From Candidatus Planktophila vernalis (lineage in GTDB: Bacteria; Actinomycetota; Actinomycetes; Nanopelagicales; Nanopelagicaceae), in contig NZ_CP016776.1 in assembly GCF_002288185.1 (NCBI RefSeq), forward strand, positions 434,001 to 498,000: a stretch of DNA of 64,000 bases, given 5' to 3'. Of this stretch, positions 16,100 through 24,751 are shown piece by piece. Each line of letters begins with the position of its first letter. The stretch's first letter is position 1. The position numbers and the translations under genes are program-made. The notes beneath the pieces are model-generated. The model was not told where the DNA came from and did no database searches. It worked only from the letters and a program-made list of their open reading frames with translations.

Positions 16100-17773
16100 A
16101 TGCCAAACATGAAGCCACGCTCAGGTGTTGTTACTGACGGATTAGAGCGCGCCCCTGCACGTGGAATGTTACGTGCAGTTGGTATGGGTGATGCTGATTG
16201 GGTTAAACCACAAATTGGTATTGCATCTTCATGGAATGAAATTACTCCCTGCAACTTATCTTTAGATCGCCTAGCAAAAGCGTCAAAGCAAGGAGTCCTA
16301 GAAGCAGGTGGATTCCCCATGCAATTTGGAACCATCTCAGTATCTGATGGAATTTCAATGGGCCACGAAGGAATGCACTTTTCACTAGTTTCTCGTGAAG
16401 TTATTGCAGACTCTGTTGAAGCAGTTATGCAGGCAGAGCGTTTAGATGGAATGGTTACTTTTGCTGGTTGCGATAAATCTCTTCCAGGAATGATGATGGC
16501 AGCAGCTCGTATCGATGTTGCAAGTGTTTTTGTTTATGCAGGTTCAACTCTGCCAGGTCAAGTTGATGGTAAAGATGTAACAATCATTGATGCCTTTGAA
16601 GCTGTTGGAGCATGTGCACGTGGATTAATCACCCAGGAGCGTGTGGATCAAATTGAACGTGCAATCTGTCCTGGTGAGGGTGCTTGTGGCGGAATGTATA
16701 CAGCAAACACCATGGCAAGTATTGGTGAAGCCATTGGGCTTTCACTTCCTGGTTCAGCTGCGCCTCCAGCTGTAGATCGCCGCCGAGATACTTATGCAAT
16801 TGCATCAGGTGCTGCGGTGGTTGAACTCATTCGTCAAGGAATCACCACACGCGATATTTTGACAAAGCAAGCATTTGAAAATGCGATCACAATATTGATG
16901 GCTTTAGGTGGTTCTACTAACGCGGTTCTTCACTTACTAGCAATTGCATATGAAGCCGAAGTAGATCTTGAGCTTAATGATTTCCACCGTATTGGATCCA
17001 AGGTTCCATTGCTGGGTGATCTCAAGCCTTTTGGCCGCTTTGTTATGAGTGATGTTGATAAAGTCGGTGGAATTCCAGTTGTGTTAAAGGGATTACTTGA
17101 TGCAGGCCTTCTTCATGGTGATGTTCTAACTGTCACAGGCAAAACAATGGCTGAGAATCTGAAAGATATTGCGCCGCCAGATCCAGATGGTCAGATTTTG
17201 CGTGCTATTTCATCTCCAATATCTACTGATATTGGAATTACTATTTTGGGTGGAACCCTTGCCAGCGATGGTGCAGTCTGTAAAACAGCGGGAATTGGCA
17301 TAGAAACTTTTGAAGGACCTGCGCGAGTGTTCGAGCGTGAACAAGCTGCAATGGATGCACTTGAAAATGGAACGATTCAAGCCGGTGATGTTGTTGTGAT
17401 TCGCTATGAGGGTCCAAAGGGTGGACCAGGTATGCGCGAGATGTTAATGATTACTGGTGCAATCAAAGGTGCAGGTCTTGGTAAATCAACTCTGCTTTTA
17501 ACAGATGGTCGCTTTTCTGGTGGATCAACTGGTTTGTGCGTCGGTCACGTTGCACCTGAAGCCGTTGATGGGGGACCGATTGCATTTATTAAGGATGGCG
17601 ATTTAGTGCGCATTGACATCACTAAGCGAACACTGGATTTGCTAGTGGACCCTAAGGAGCTTGAGGCTAGAAAAGTTGGCTGGAAGCCTTTGGGTCACAA
17701 ATACTCCCGCGGGGTCTTGGCTAAGTATTCAAAGCTGGTCGGATCTGCATCCAAAGGCGCGGTCTGCGAGTAA
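16100..17773 (+). CDS. ilvD: Dihydroxy-acid dehydratase
   Basis: IlvD dehydrates the dihydroxy acids in the third step of valine and isoleucine synthesis, using an iron-sulfur cluster. The 557-residue protein carries the cluster cysteines in [11 protein letters not shown] (C124) and [16 protein letters not shown] (C196), plus C-terminal [19 protein letters not shown]. It starts at ATG 16100 with no Shine-Dalgarno sequence. It is separated from ilvB by an attenuator region of about 200 bases, so ilvD and ilvBNC are probably controlled separately. Confidence 0.97.
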
Positions 17774-17808
17774 AGCTGGCTCAAATTGTGAGATGTGCAT
17801 CTCATGCC

Positions 17809-17838
17809 TTGACTCTTATGCGTAATTCATTGGACAAT
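17809..17838 (+). promoter_or_regulatory. Promoter of the ilvBNC attenuator transcript
   Basis: TTGACT (17809-17814), an 18-base spacer and GACAAT (17833-17838) form a sigma-70-type promoter. The -10 box ends six bases before the leader peptide ATG, so RNA would start at or next to that codon. Confidence 0.65.
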
Positions 17839-17844
17839 ATCTCC

Positions 17845-17874
17845 ATGAGTACAACATTTGTGGTGGTGATTTAG
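17845..17874 (+). CDS. ilvBNC attenuator leader peptide MSTTFVVVI
   Basis: ATG-AGT-ACA-ACA-TTT-GTG-GTG-GTG-ATT-TAG encodes nine residues with three consecutive valines and an isoleucine, the end products of the pathway controlled. Ribosome stalling at these codons when Val-tRNA or Ile-tRNA is scarce would change folding of the downstream RNA. A pause hairpin and terminator follow in the expected order. Leader peptides of this kind are known for ilv operons in enteric bacteria and corynebacteria. No ribosome site precedes the ATG; the promoter position suggests leaderless translation. The threonines may add sensitivity to the isoleucine precursor, which is a guess. Confidence 0.88.
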   Translation: MSTTFVVVI

Positions 17875-17876
17875 CA

Positions 17877-17903
17877 GCGCGTGATCTAACGATGATCATG
17901 CGC
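17877..17903 (+). promoter_or_regulatory. Pause (1:2) hairpin of the ilv attenuator
   Basis: GCGCGTGATC (17877-17886) pairs with GATCATGCGC (17894-17903), ten pairs with one G-U, across a seven-base loop. It starts three bases after the leader stop codon. Alternatively CGCCGCC (17901-17907) can pair with the GGTGGTG of the valine codons (two G-U pairs), giving a competing fold. Confidence 0.75.
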
Positions 17904-17905
17904 CG

Positions 17906-17929
17906 CCCTCAGTTATCTGAGGGTTTTTT
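17906..17929 (+). terminator. Attenuator terminator before ilvB
   Basis: CCCTCAG (17906-17912) pairs with CTGAGGG (17917-17923) across TTAT, followed by six T (17924-17929). It lies 43 bases before the ilvB start and would end transcription when valine and isoleucine are plentiful. Confidence 0.92.
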
Positions 17930-17972
17930 CGTTTAACCACTTTAAATGCAAGGCAACGAAGGGAGAAGAACA

Positions 17973-19709
17973 ATGAGTCAAATGACTGGGGCCAGTTCAC
18001 TTGTGGCATCACTTGAAGCTGCAGGCGTTGACGTCATGTTTGGAATCCCAGGCGGTGCGATCCTGCCAGCCTATGACCCAATTTTTTCTAGCTCCATCCG
18101 CCACATTCTTGTTCGCCACGAACAAGGTGCAGGACATGCTGCAACTGGTTATGCCCAAGTAACTGGTCGCGTTGGTGTGTGTATTGCTACATCAGGTCCT
18201 GGTGCAACAAATCTTGTAACACCTTTGGCCGATGCTGCAATGGATTCAGTTCCAGTTGTTGCAATTACAGGCCAGGTGCCTTCAGTTGCAATTGGTACAG
18301 ATGCTTTCCAAGAAGCCGATATTCGCGGCATCACAATGCCATTTGCAAAACACAATTATTTGATTACCAACCCAGCCGATATCCCACGCGCGATCGCCGA
18401 GGCCTTCCATATTGCAAGCACAGGCCGTCCCGGCCCAGTTCTTGTGGATATTGCAAAAGATGCACTTCAAGCTATGACAGATTTCAAATTTCCAACATCT
18501 GTTAATTTGGCTGGATATAAACCAAAGTCGGTCCCAGACAATCAGTCGATTCTGGATGCGGCTGCGTTAATCACCCAATCGAGTAAGCCAGTCTTTTATG
18601 TTGGTGGCGGAGTAATCAAGGCAAATGCATCACGTGAATTGTTAGAACTTGCACAATTACTTGGTGCACCTGTTGTTACAACTCTTATGGCACGTGGCGC
18701 ATTCCCAGATAGTCACCCGCTCAACCTTGGAATGCCTGGAATGCATGGAACGGTTGCTGCAGTTACAGCCCTACAAAAAGCAGATCTGCTTATCACTTTA
18801 GGTGCACGCTTTGATGACCGTGTTACAGGCAAGCTTTCAACATTTGCAGTTAATGCCAAGGTTATTCACGCAGATATCGATCCTGCTGAAATTGGTAAGA
18901 ATCGCTTTGCTGATGTTGCCGTATTGGGTGATCTCAAAAACACTATCTCTGCGCTGATTCCAGCACTTAAATCAGCTCTTGCAAAGAATCAGCCTGATTT
19001 AACTCCATGGTTACACCAGATGAATTCACTTCAAGCTGCATATCCCTTGGGTTATGACAAACCAAATGATGGGACATTGTCTCCACAGTATGTAATTGAA
19101 CGACTTGGAAAAATCTCAGGTCCTGATGCAATTTTTGCTGCAGGTGTTGGCCAACATCAGATGTGGGCTTCCCAGTTTGTTTCTTATGAAAATCCACGCA
19201 CCTGGCTTAACTCTGGTGGCTTAGGAACTATGGGATATGCAGTTCCTGCGGCAATGGGTGCAAAAGTTGGAGCACCGGACACAACTGTGTGGGCAATCGA
19301 TGGTGATGGTTGTTTCCAGATGACTAATCAAGAGCTCGTCACGTGTGCACTCAATAACATTCCAATCAAGGTTGCAATCATTAATAACGAATCTCTTGGC
19401 ATGGTTCGCCAGTGGCAGACCCTGTTCTATGAAGGTCGATACTCAAACACAAACCTTGAATCTAAGCGCGTTCCTAACTTCCCAATGCTTGCAGAAGCTA
19501 TGGGTTGCGTTGGTTTGAGTTGTGAGCGTGAAGAAGATGTTGATGCAACGATTGAAAAGGCAATGGGGATTAATGATCAACCCGTTGTTATTGATTTCCG
19601 AGTGCATCGCGATGCAATGGTGTGGCCAATGGTTGCAGCTGGTGCATCAAATGATGACATTAAGATCGCGCGCGAAACCGCGCCTGACTGGGATTCACAG
19701 GAGCTATAA
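17973..19709 (+). CDS. ilvB: Acetolactate synthase large subunit
   Basis: This ThDP/FAD enzyme makes acetolactate or acetohydroxybutyrate, the first common step to valine, leucine and isoleucine. The 578-residue protein has the N-terminal ThDP glutamate region ([13 protein letters not shown], then [13 protein letters not shown]), the FAD domain and the C-terminal ThDP motif beginning [15 protein letters not shown] 17973 follows GAAGGGAG, which makes it preferable to an in-frame ATG nine codons earlier. It is the first structural gene after the attenuator and forms an operon with ilvN and ilvC. Confidence 0.97.
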
Positions 19710-19711
19710 AA

Positions 19712-19999
19712 ATGGCCCAACACACACTCGAAGTTTTAGTAGAGAACTCACCTGGCGTATTGGCCCGCGTTGCTGGCCTCTTTTCTCGCCGTGCTTACAA
19801 CATTGAACGCTTATCAGTTGGTCCAACTGCTGACTCATCCATCTCACAGATGGACATAGTGGTTAATTTGGAAGGCCATGCGCTCGAGCAAGTAATTGCT
19901 CAGCTAGATAAGTTAATCAATGTCATTTCTATTAAGGAAATAGTTCCAAATAAGGCAGCACCAGCAGTTCACGACACTCAACCCGATTACCAGAACTAA
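19712..19999 (+). CDS. ilvN: Acetolactate synthase small regulatory subunit, short form
   Basis: IlvN activates IlvB and passes on feedback inhibition by valine. The 95-residue protein holds one ACT domain (HTLEVLVENSPGVLARVAGLFSRR...NIERLSVG) and then ends in a polar tail. Most actinobacterial IlvN proteins are near 170 residues and have a second C-terminal domain; this one is the length of the short enterobacterial type. The stop is clear and the next gene has its own ribosome site, so it does not look like a frameshift. Confidence 0.93.
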   Translation: MAQHTLEVLVENSPGVLARVAGLFSRRAYNIERLSVGPTADSSISQMDIVVNLEGHALEQVIAQLDKLINVISIKEIVPNKAAPAVHDTQPDYQN

Positions 20000-22079
<2,080 letters not shown>

Positions 22080-22082
22080 GCC

Positions 22083-23162
22083 ATGAAAGTCACACTCAAT
22101 CCAAATGCAAAAGATGCAGCAACTCGTGATGCACTTGTTGCTGAAGGTGGTTTCGGTAAGTACTACACCGATCACATGGTTGTGTGTGAGTGGACTGAAA
22201 AAGATGGCTGGGCAGAACCAGAGTTAAAGCCTTATGGTCCACTTTCTTTAGATCCAGCGACAGCAGTATTTCACTACGGTCAGGAAATCTTTGAAGGTAT
22301 GAAGGCTTATCGCCAACCTGATGGTTCAATCTCACTCTTTCGCCCTGATGCAAATGCAAAGCGTTTTGCTAACTCTGCAAAACGTTTAGCTCTACCTGAA
22401 ATGCCAGAGGCGTTATTTCTAGAAACAGTTGAAACTTTAGTTAAGCAAGATGCAGGTTGGGTGCCAAACAAAATTGGTGAATCTCTCTATATCCGTCCAT
22501 TTATGATTGCAACAGAGGTTGGTTTGGGTGTTCGTCCAACTAACAAAGCCACATACATTCTTATTGCAACACCTGCCGGAGCCTACTTTGATCCATCAAA
22601 GGCTGTTTCTGTGTGGATTTCAACTGAATATGTGCGAGCAGCGCAAGGTGGAACAGGTGAGGCAAAGTGCGGAGGAAACTATGCAGCCTCACTCGTTGCA
22701 CAAAAAGCTGCTGCGAAAGAGGGTTGCGACCAAGTTGTGTGGATTGATGCAAAAGAGCGCAAGTGGGTTGAAGAGATGGGTGGCATGAACCTTTACTTTG
22801 TTAAGGGCAAAGGCGCAGATGCAACTGTCATCACTCCAAAGTTAACTGGAACATTGCTTCCAGGGATTACCCGTGATTCGATTCTCTCTGTTGCTAAGGA
22901 CCTTGGCTATAAAACTGAAGAAGTAATGCTGAGCATCGATGATTGGCGCGATGGCGTTTCATCCGGTGAAATCACTGAAATCTTTGCGTGTGGAACAGCT
23001 GCAGTTGTTTCACCGGTTGGTACTGCTAAATCAAATATGGGTACATGGGTGACTGGCGATGGCCAACCTGGTGTGATTACTATGCAAATTCGCAATCACT
23101 TACTTGCCATTCAACATGGAACAACCTCTGATACACACGGCTGGGTTCGTAAGGTCTGCTAA
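22083..23162 (+). CDS. ilvE: Branched-chain amino acid aminotransferase
   Basis: This class IV PLP transaminase makes the last step to valine, leucine and isoleucine. The 359-residue protein has YGQEIFEGMKAYR, IRPFMIATEVGLGV, the PLP lysine K195 in GEAKCGGNYA, and GEITEIFACGTAAVVSPVG. It starts three bases after leuB and its TAA stop shares one base with the cimA ATG, so the cluster from ilvB onward is probably read as one transcript. Confidence 0.96.
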   Translation: MKVTLNPNAKDAATRDALVAEGGFGKYYTDHMVVCEWTEKDGWAEPELKPYGPLSLDPATAVFHYGQEIFEGMKAYRQPDGSISLFRPDANAKRFANSAKRLALPEMPEALFLETVETLVKQDAGWVPNKIGESLYIRPFMIATEVGLGVRPTNKATYILIATPAGAYFDPSKAVSVWISTEYVRAAQGGTGEAKCGGNYAASLVAQKAAAKEGCDQVVWIDAKERKWVEEMGGMNLYFVKGKGADATVITPKLTGTLLPGITRDSILSVAKDLGYKTEEVMLSIDDWRDGVSSGEITEIFACGTAAVVSPVGTAKSNMGTWVTGDGQPGVITMQIRNHLLAIQHGTTSDTHGWVRKVC

Positions 23163-24751
23163 TGCCAGTCTCTGATGCATTTCATATTTATGACACCACT
23201 CTGCGCGATGGTGCGCAGCAAGAGGGATTAAATCTCTCGGTTCATGACAAGTTGGCAATCGCGCGTCATCTTGATGATCTTGGTGTTGGATTTATTGAAG
23301 GTGGATGGCCAGGGGCAAACCCAAAGGACACTGAGTTTTTTGCGCGAGCTAAAAAGGAATTAGTACTAAAGAATGCAACCTTTGTTGCATTTGGTGCCAC
23401 ACGTCGTCCAAACGTTAAAGCCGCCGATGATGTATTACTTGGTGCCCTGCGTGATTCAGGTGCTCCAGCAGTTACTTTGGTTGCAAAGGCTTTTGATCGC
23501 CACGTTGATTTAGCACTCAAAACTTCTCTTGATGAAAACCTAGAGATGATCCGTGACTCAGTGAGTCACTTAATTGCTGAAGGACAACGTGTATTTCTTG
23601 ATGCTGAGCACTTCTTTGATGGCTATCGCAGTAACCGTGCATACGCGCTAGAAGTTGTACGCGTTGCAGCTGAAGCAGGGGCAGACGTCATTGCCTTGTG
23701 CGACACAAACGGCGGAATGTTGCCAGATGAGCTTTCACAAGTAGTCCATGATGTTTTAACTGCTAGCTCTGCTCGCCTTGGTATTCATTGCCACAACGAC
23801 ACAGGATGCGCAGTTGCTAACTCAATGGCTGCAGTTGCAGCAGGTGCGACGCACGTTCAAGGAACTCTTAATGGTTATGGTGAGCGCACCGGTAACGCTG
23901 ATCTAGTAACAATTATTGCAAACCTAGAGTTGAAGAAGCATCAATTGGTATTACCTAAGGATTCACTGCGCGAAGCATTTAGAATCTCACATGCCGTAGC
24001 TGAAGTTACAAACGTCTCTTCTAGTGCGCGTCAGCCATATGTGGGAGTTTCAGCATTTGCTCACAAGGCAGGTCTGCACGCCAGCGCTATTAAGGTTGAT
24101 CCATCCCTTTACCAACATGAAGATCCAGCATCTGTTGGAAACGATATGCGTATGTTGGTCTCTGACATGGCTGGGCGTGCATCTATTGAATTAAAGTCCC
24201 AAGAACTCGGTGTTGATCTTGGTGGAGATAAAGAACTTATCGGCCGTATCGTTGATCGCGTTAAGGAGATGGAATCTCGCGGATTCACTTTTGAAGCTGC
24301 TGATGCCTCATTTGAACTTCTAGTTCATGAAGAGATGATCGGCAAGCGTCCATCTTTCTTTACCATCGACCATTGGCTAACAACTGTTGAGCGCTCTGAA
24401 GATCAAAGCATTCTTACAAAGGCTGAAGTTAAAGTAACGGCTATGGGTAAGCAGATTTCATGTTCTGGCTCTGGTAACGGTCCCGTAAATGCATTTGATA
24501 ACGCTTTGCGTACAGGATTGAAAGCTCTGTATCCAGAGTTAGAAGTTCTAGAGCTCACTGATTACAAGGTGCGCATCCTTGAGGGTCGTCTGGGTACGGG
24601 CGCAGTTACACGCGTATTAGTTGAAACGAGCGATGGCAAGGGCGAATGGAACACCGTTGGTGTGCATGAAAACGTTATTGCAGCTTCTGCAATGGCACTT
24701 GAGGACGCGGTTACCTTCGGCCTTATGCGTCAGGGACGCAAACCCGAGTAA
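23162..24751 (+). CDS. cimA: (R)-citramalate synthase
   Basis: CimA condenses pyruvate and acetyl-CoA to citramalate, which leads to 2-oxobutyrate for isoleucine without threonine deaminase. The 529-residue DRE-TIM metallolyase family protein has IYDTTLRDGAQQEGLNLSV, HCHNDTGCAVANSMAAV and the VSAFAHKAGLHASA hinge, then a C-terminal LeuA-type allosteric domain. TTLRDGAQQEG and GGWPGANPKD are typical of CimA; isopropylmalate synthases have TTLRDGEQ. Its place beside leuB and ilvE supports the role. Confidence 0.9.
   Translation: MPVSDAFHIYDTTLRDGAQQEGLNLSVHDKLAIARHLDDLGVGFIEGGWPGANPKDTEFFARAKKELVLKNATFVAFGATRRPNVKAADDVLLGALRDSGAPAVTLVAKAFDRHVDLALKTSLDENLEMIRDSVSHLIAEGQRVFLDAEHFFDGYRSNRAYALEVVRVAAEAGADVIALCDTNGGMLPDELSQVVHDVLTASSARLGIHCHNDTGCAVANSMAAVAAGATHVQGTLNGYGERTGNADLVTIIANLELKKHQLVLPKDSLREAFRISHAVAEVTNVSSSARQPYVGVSAFAHKAGLHASAIKVDPSLYQHEDPASVGNDMRMLVSDMAGRASIELKSQELGVDLGGDKELIGRIVDRVKEMESRGFTFEAADASFELLVHEEMIGKRPSFFTIDHWLTTVERSEDQSILTKAEVKVTAMGKQISCSGSGNGPVNAFDNALRTGLKALYPELEVLELTDYKVRILEGRLGTGAVTRVLVETSDGKGEWNTVGVHENVIAASAMALEDAVTFGLMRQGRKPE

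Follow-up and report, generated by a model that had tools for sequence, protein, structure and literature searches.

A probable ribosome-mediated attenuator ahead of the ilvB operon in a small-genome freshwater lineage of actinobacteria

Genes for branched-chain amino acid synthesis form a compact cluster within the window, the 64,000-nucleotide stretch of DNA analysed here, which belongs to a genome assembled as a single contig of 1.36 Mb. Gene ilvD ends at 17773 and ilvB begins at 17973, and the space between them holds, in this order, an array of half-sites, a promoter, a short leader open reading frame (ORF), a hairpin (H1) and an intrinsic terminator (T). On the plus strand, the regulated gene ilvB, for the acetolactate synthase large subunit (17973..19709; NCBIfam NF005860, 1045.8 bits), is followed by a short ilvN of 95 amino acids (19712-19999), ilvC (20012-21049), leuB (ending at 22079), ilvE (22083-23162) and cimA, which encodes citramalate synthase (23162-24751; NCBIfam TIGR00977, 620.6 bits); ilvN, ilvC, leuB and ilvE were named from reading their translations. 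A sequence-only reading of this DNA had spoken of an ilvBNC operon. It is an ilv operon, but its extent is larger, ilvB-ilvN-ilvC-leuB-ilvE-cimA, and as ilvB to cimA are nearly gapless, a single attenuator probably controls the greater part of the branched-chain pathway. The nearest relatives in the named collections are actinobacterial genomes mainly from fresh water (e.g., Actinobacteria bacterium IMCC26103), and the genome is one that we take to be of the acI (Nanopelagicales) kind. Elsewhere in the window, an Actino-pnp RNA (RF01688; 52644-52706, plus strand, 66.4 bits) is the sole match to Rfam.

The comparison of regions upstream of ilvB drew on 60 selected relatives, another 30 genomes and 80 loci from named genomes. 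The family set comprises 97 distinct promoters that could be parsed, with five loci left unparsed (L018, L043, L049, L050, L151); the CCCTCAG terminator anchor is absent upstream of ilvB in L049 and L050, two more distant relatives. The sigma-70-type promoter of the window, TTGACT-18-GACAAT, lies at 17809..17838 on the plus strand (-35 at 17809-17814, -10 at 17833-17838), where the sequence-only reading had placed it. Taken by itself the match (9/12) is within chance, with one found against 2.7 expected, but its conservation is not: the pattern TTGAC, a spacer of 17 or 18 nucleotides and xAxxxT is kept in the 97 distinct relatives. The distance from the -10 element to the start codon of the leader is nearly invariant, being 6 nucleotides in 91 of the 97 distinct promoters and 7 in the other six, and the start codon is ATG in 95 of the 97 parsed relatives. 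Since the start codon sits where transcription should begin, the leader ORF is probably carried on a leaderless transcript, as judged from the spacing and by analogy with C. glutamicum, in which the leader start lies one nucleotide from the transcript start (PMC11857589), and with S. lividans, in which IlvL is transcribed leaderless (PMC8079986).

Four nucleotides before the -35 element of the window ends a probable operator (17778..17804, no strand assigned) made up of three alternating half-sites: (GG)CTCA at 17780-17783, TGAGAT at 17789-17794 after five nucleotides, and ATCTCA at 17799-17804 after four more. The ilvB site holds the only exact copy of TGAGAT-N4-ATCTCA in the genome, and with at most two mismatches the palindrome occurs in 87 of the 97 distinct relatives, in 81 of them exactly 4 nucleotides from the -35. 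Identical half-sites with the same N4 and N5 spacings lie between ltbR and leuC in 49 of the 50 relatives checked (the intergenic sites are L217-L244 and L247-L266), beside a gene for an IclR-family regulator (G000:C1:505358-506071 in the genome of the window). Because the half-sites are common to ilvB and ltbR-leuC, an LtbR/NdgR-type IclR regulator probably binds the array at ilvB, a suggestion that draws also on analogy with S. coelicolor, where NdgR binds the ilvB and leuC promoters (PMC4340878). The published LtbR/NdgR consensus KTYCRSMWYSYGRRM is an inverted repeat with N5 (PMC8222616), and inverted half-sites with N5 are likewise found at ilvB here; the predicted site differs from the known operators in its half-site TGAGAT and in the third half-site at N4. 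The palindrome was also considered as a genome-wide regulon signal, but the three one-mismatch sites elsewhere are all intragenic and were taken as chance. Loss or decay of the ilvB operator is seen in some genera and, within the genus of the window, in two members (L155-L157, L162, L045, L119, L127). Genera without it retain LtbR, and the leuC site also persists in the genera checked, so that presence or absence of LtbR does not discriminate as a cause of the missing ilvB operator.

The leader ORF (17845..17874, plus strand, with TAG at 17872-17874) starts 6 nucleotides past the -10 element and encodes MSTTFVVVI, at the position at which the peptide had originally been proposed. A short ORF rich in Val, Ile or Leu, the feature to be expected in related genomes if the proposal were sound, was found in 97 of 97 parsed relatives. 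Every one of these leaders contains a run of at least three Val, Ile or Leu codons, and across them the three residues make up 45% of all leader residues, the remaining peptide varying freely; these counts come from related, non-independent sequences. Codon choice within the leaders is distinctive. All three Val codons of the window leader are GTG, the codon used for 71% of leader valines among the relatives compared with 16% in the neighbouring genes of the window, which prefer GTT. Among 30 scanned tRNA loci, tRNA-Val is represented with the anticodons TAC and GAC. Over much of the family the leader frame runs on through the 5' strand of H1, the peptides ending in ERAI or KRAI, while in the clade of the window the stop codon precedes H1.

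Terminator T (17905..17929, plus strand) has an 8-bp stem (17905-17912/17917-17924) and six T residues (17924-17929). Its predicted free energy is -13.9 kcal/mol (z -6.8), and none of 200 dinucleotide-preserving shuffles was equally stable. The CTGAGGG-type terminator that the sequence-only reading had set between the leader ORF and ilvB is thus confirmed, and it is conserved, with 97.6% of the stem paired in 21 sequences. H1, of 10 bp, occupies 17877..17903 on the plus strand (17877-17886/17894-17903), at -17.1 kcal/mol (z -5.4), again with 0 of 200 shuffles equally stable, and the entire leader folds at -34.3 kcal/mol (z -4.9; 0 of 200). Compensatory changes had been proposed for both stems. 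They are abundant in H1, where 32 diverse sequences show 7 of 11 pairs altered on both sides (18 cells), a level that none of 500 shuffles reached and that was much lower or destroyed when the partner columns were slid by 1 to 3 positions. In T they affect only one of eight pairs, the stem being too conserved to show much covariation. H1 and T jointly are 93.9% paired, and in the 32 sequences used for the covariation of H1 91.7% of its cells are paired.

The placement of H1 points to what it may respond to. The last Val/Ile codon and the first G of H1 are 5 nucleotides apart in 30 of the 32 sequences and 4 in the other two, while the stop codon ranges from 5 nucleotides before the start of H1 to 10 nucleotides inside it, a shift of 15 nucleotides. 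The fixed distance and the moving stop codon together indicate that the point of reference for H1 is the regulatory codons, not the stop codon. Folding with an assumed ribosome footprint of 12 nucleotides, counted from the first base of the A-site codon, predicts that with a ribosome on the first Val codon (V1) H1 is free in all sequences, at -11 to -24 kcal/mol, and that with a ribosome at the stop codon it is lost in all of them; in the window, H1 already loses its base with the ribosome at the third Val codon.

H1 and T lie close together throughout. In every family member H1 ends between 4 nucleotides inside T and 3 nucleotides before it, and in the outgroups in which both were found (Nocardioides to Frankia, Kitasatospora) the distance to T is at most 3 nucleotides. 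The overlap in the window is 2 nucleotides; many relatives have contact only (gap 0), with no shared base. By using the two basal 5' bases of T, H1 of the window is predicted to extend over 17874..17906 on the plus strand through the pairs 17874:17906 and 17875:17905, giving -19.0 kcal/mol as against -16.1 for H1 alone, and T without its two basal pairs drops from -13.3 to -8.0 kcal/mol. With a ribosome on V1 the extension has a probability of about 0.99 before the 3' arm of T emerges and about 0.1 afterwards, and the complete T regains the two shared bases at equilibrium (P 0.93). Equilibrium folding therefore yields no clean switch, and any antitermination would have to be kinetic or steric. 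We infer from these folds that H1 antagonises T by base sharing (kinetic preclusion), by a steric block from the abutting helix, or by both. That the H1-T overlap should be a sensitive spot is plausible from mutational work in C. glutamicum, where mutations in the overlap of terminator and antiterminator raise expression seven- to eightfold (PMC11857589).

The sequence-only reading was correct on the position and pairing of the ten-pair hairpin, but the role it gave the hairpin, that of a pause hairpin, fits less well than that of antiterminator. As H1 abuts or overlaps T in nearly every sequence, and in the folds forms or vanishes with the position of the ribosome, it is better read as the equivalent of the antiterminator in the three-hairpin model of C. 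glutamicum. The whole region is, with good confidence, a ribosome-mediated transcription attenuator of the ilvB-ilvN-ilvC-leuB-ilvE-cimA operon with a Val/Ile leader peptide. Attenuation of this kind, as already suggested from the single sequence, gains its support from the conservation of the ORF, the promoter and both hairpins across the family and from the compensatory changes in H1. According to the model, RNA polymerase would start on the A of the leader ATG or beside it, giving a leaderless mRNA from which the leader would be translated. Under a shortage of Val-tRNA (and Ile-tRNA) the ribosome would stall on GUG GUG GUG AUU with its front edge short of 17877, so that H1 could form; with two further pairs reaching into the base of T, H1 would keep the lower part of T from closing against the U-run and allow read-through into ilvB. 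With Val and Ile plentiful the ribosome would reach the UAG at 17872 and cover the 5' strand of H1, and with H1 blocked T would close and the transcript end near 17930. The operon would accordingly be on when Val and Ile are short, a direction that follows from the model. An LtbR/NdgR-type IclR protein, going by the shared half-sites, probably adds control at the level of the promoter.

A different layout had been foreseen in part by the sequence-only reading, which noted a second structure that could compete with the first: pairing of the Val codons (17862-17868) with CGCCGCC (17901-17907), within 17862..17907 of the plus strand. H1 would then serve as a pause hairpin keeping ribosome and polymerase in step, with the Val-codon helix as antiterminator. 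The pairing is geometrically possible, with seven pairs and -16.3 kcal/mol in the window when the upper part of H1 is kept, and it is pairable in 92% of cells in the 32 sequences. The extended H1 is more stable (-19.0 kcal/mol), and the helix shows no covariation beyond column composition, as 62 to 195 of 500 shuffles score at least as high as the real sequences. A stalled ribosome would, moreover, mask its 5' strand, so that starvation would prevent the helix, which is the wrong direction for derepression. The Val-codon helix was therefore rejected as antiterminator, and the layout built on it is improbable. Slightly less improbable, though still unlikely, is that the leader senses translation in general, through arrival of a ribosome on the leaderless mRNA, with the Val/Ile codons incidental. 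The passages of Seliverstov et al. 2005 (PMC1262725) on this subject report that changing the presumed regulatory codons in the ilvB leader of S. coelicolor was without effect, a result that speaks for general sensing and counts against attenuation by specific codons. Val/Ile/Leu runs in all 97 parsed relatives, at a fixed distance to H1, argue the other way, as do the Ile runs of related leaders ahead of cimA, which are in line with the pathway of that gene.

Two further explanations would do away with the leader peptide. H1 and T could belong to the end of ilvD as its terminator, or to a small RNA in its own right, with the ORF there by chance; ilvD does end just upstream, at 17773, and T is a good intrinsic terminator. 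In all parsed relatives, however, a promoter, a start codon at the fixed 6 nucleotides and the Val/Ile ORF intervene, and the module accompanies ilvB in the outgroup and, in its sister version, cimA, which makes this very improbable. Still less credible is a ligand-binding riboswitch or T-box ahead of ilvB, such as the ppGpp riboswitch of some ilv genes. Some ilvB genes are under riboswitch control, according to work cited in PMC10272879, but a search of Rfam (release 15, including T-box and ppGpp riboswitch) matched the attenuator with no model at gathering score, the best E value at a relaxed threshold being 0.2, and likewise gave no match to the outgroup and cimA versions. Conservation here is in stems and codons; the loops vary, and there is no invariant unpaired core.

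In its own genome the covariance model of the attenuator (R1) finds only this place (E 9e-17, the next hit having E 1.3). Under strict filters and at E 0.01 it matches 58 of 148 genomes of the class, 45 of them outside the family. The attenuator, which the sequence-only reading held would be a notable survivor in streamlined actinobacteria, is not an isolated case: nearly all of the family has it, and it also occurs across the class. Several genomes have two R1 matches, the second directly before cimA (citramalate synthase, NCBIfam TIGR00977). Other families supplied 30 cimA loci, and in 20 of them the module lies 23-98 nucleotides before the gene at E <1, in 19 of these at E <0.01; examples from cimA loci L290-L313 and others are L290:1395-1463, L309:1361-1439 and L276:10423-10491. 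Leaders before cimA, in frames picked by eye among alternatives and with predicted starts, carry Ile runs, e.g., MLHHGIIIN, MPPQAIIIVRRAG and VTAVIIII (also AIIIVRRAG), while the ilvB leaders of genomes with a cimA module have Leu-Val-Val or similar. The hairpins of the cimA version touch, as they do at ilvB. In the genus of the window, cimA is one of the genes of the ilvB operon and lacks a separate leader. No report of a cimA leader peptide was found in the literature searched, which takes in only a minority of subscription journals.

These versions may be forms of one reprogrammable attenuator of Actinomycetes, composed of a leaderless ORF, an H1 about 5 nucleotides past the regulatory codons and a T touching H1, with Val, Leu or Ile codons at ilvB and Ile codons at cimA, and with antitermination by contact between H1 and the base of T instead of a classical helix that sequesters a whole terminator arm; we regard the case for and against this generalisation as about evenly balanced. 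The Ile-coded version ahead of citramalate synthase is a regulatory hint that cimA serves isoleucine synthesis. The mechanism of actinobacterial ilvB attenuators has long been unsettled, and the many natural variants, with a shifted stop codon and with or without the overlap, make it testable. A small-genome freshwater actinobacterial lineage apparently keeps two layers of control on its branched-chain operon, and streamlining has thus not removed this regulation.

Leaders of ilvB in Corynebacterium, Mycobacterium and Streptomyces, each an ORF with a run of Ile, Val or Leu codons followed by a terminator, are described in passages of Seliverstov et al. 2005 (PMC1262725), where their mode of regulation is called unclear. 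As in those leaders, a short ORF of branched-chain amino acid codons and a terminator hairpin with poly-U precede ilvB here; the present leader differs from those in the passages in being shorter and in having its stop codon before H1. Covariation of H1 and the fixed distance from the Val/Ile codons to H1 are additions of the present analysis, and the present family is not treated in those passages of the paper. Branched-chain amino acid codons are likewise shared with the three-hairpin ilvBNC attenuator of C. glutamicum (PMC11857589) and the Corynebacterium ilvB-II motif (PMC10272879). The leader of C. glutamicum starts at the transcript start, which is predicted here from the 6-nucleotide spacing to the -10 element. 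Its antiterminator overlaps the foot of the terminator by a few bases, where the window has 2 nucleotides and many relatives contact alone. The third C. glutamicum hairpin, an anti-antiterminator over the leader start, has no counterpart in the fold of the window beyond a weak, interrupted stem at 17845-17867; for this reason the attenuator is regarded as working like the C. glutamicum type and is not filed as a member of it. IlvL of S. lividans (MRTRILVLGKRVG, PMC8079986) offers the same layout, a leaderless leader before ilvB with hairpins and a U-run, although its peptide is longer, mixes Leu, Val and Ile and runs into H1, whereas the peptide here has Val-Val-Val-Ile and then stops. The type of switch is already known from such actinobacterial ilvB attenuators, to which the attenuator of this family is newly added.
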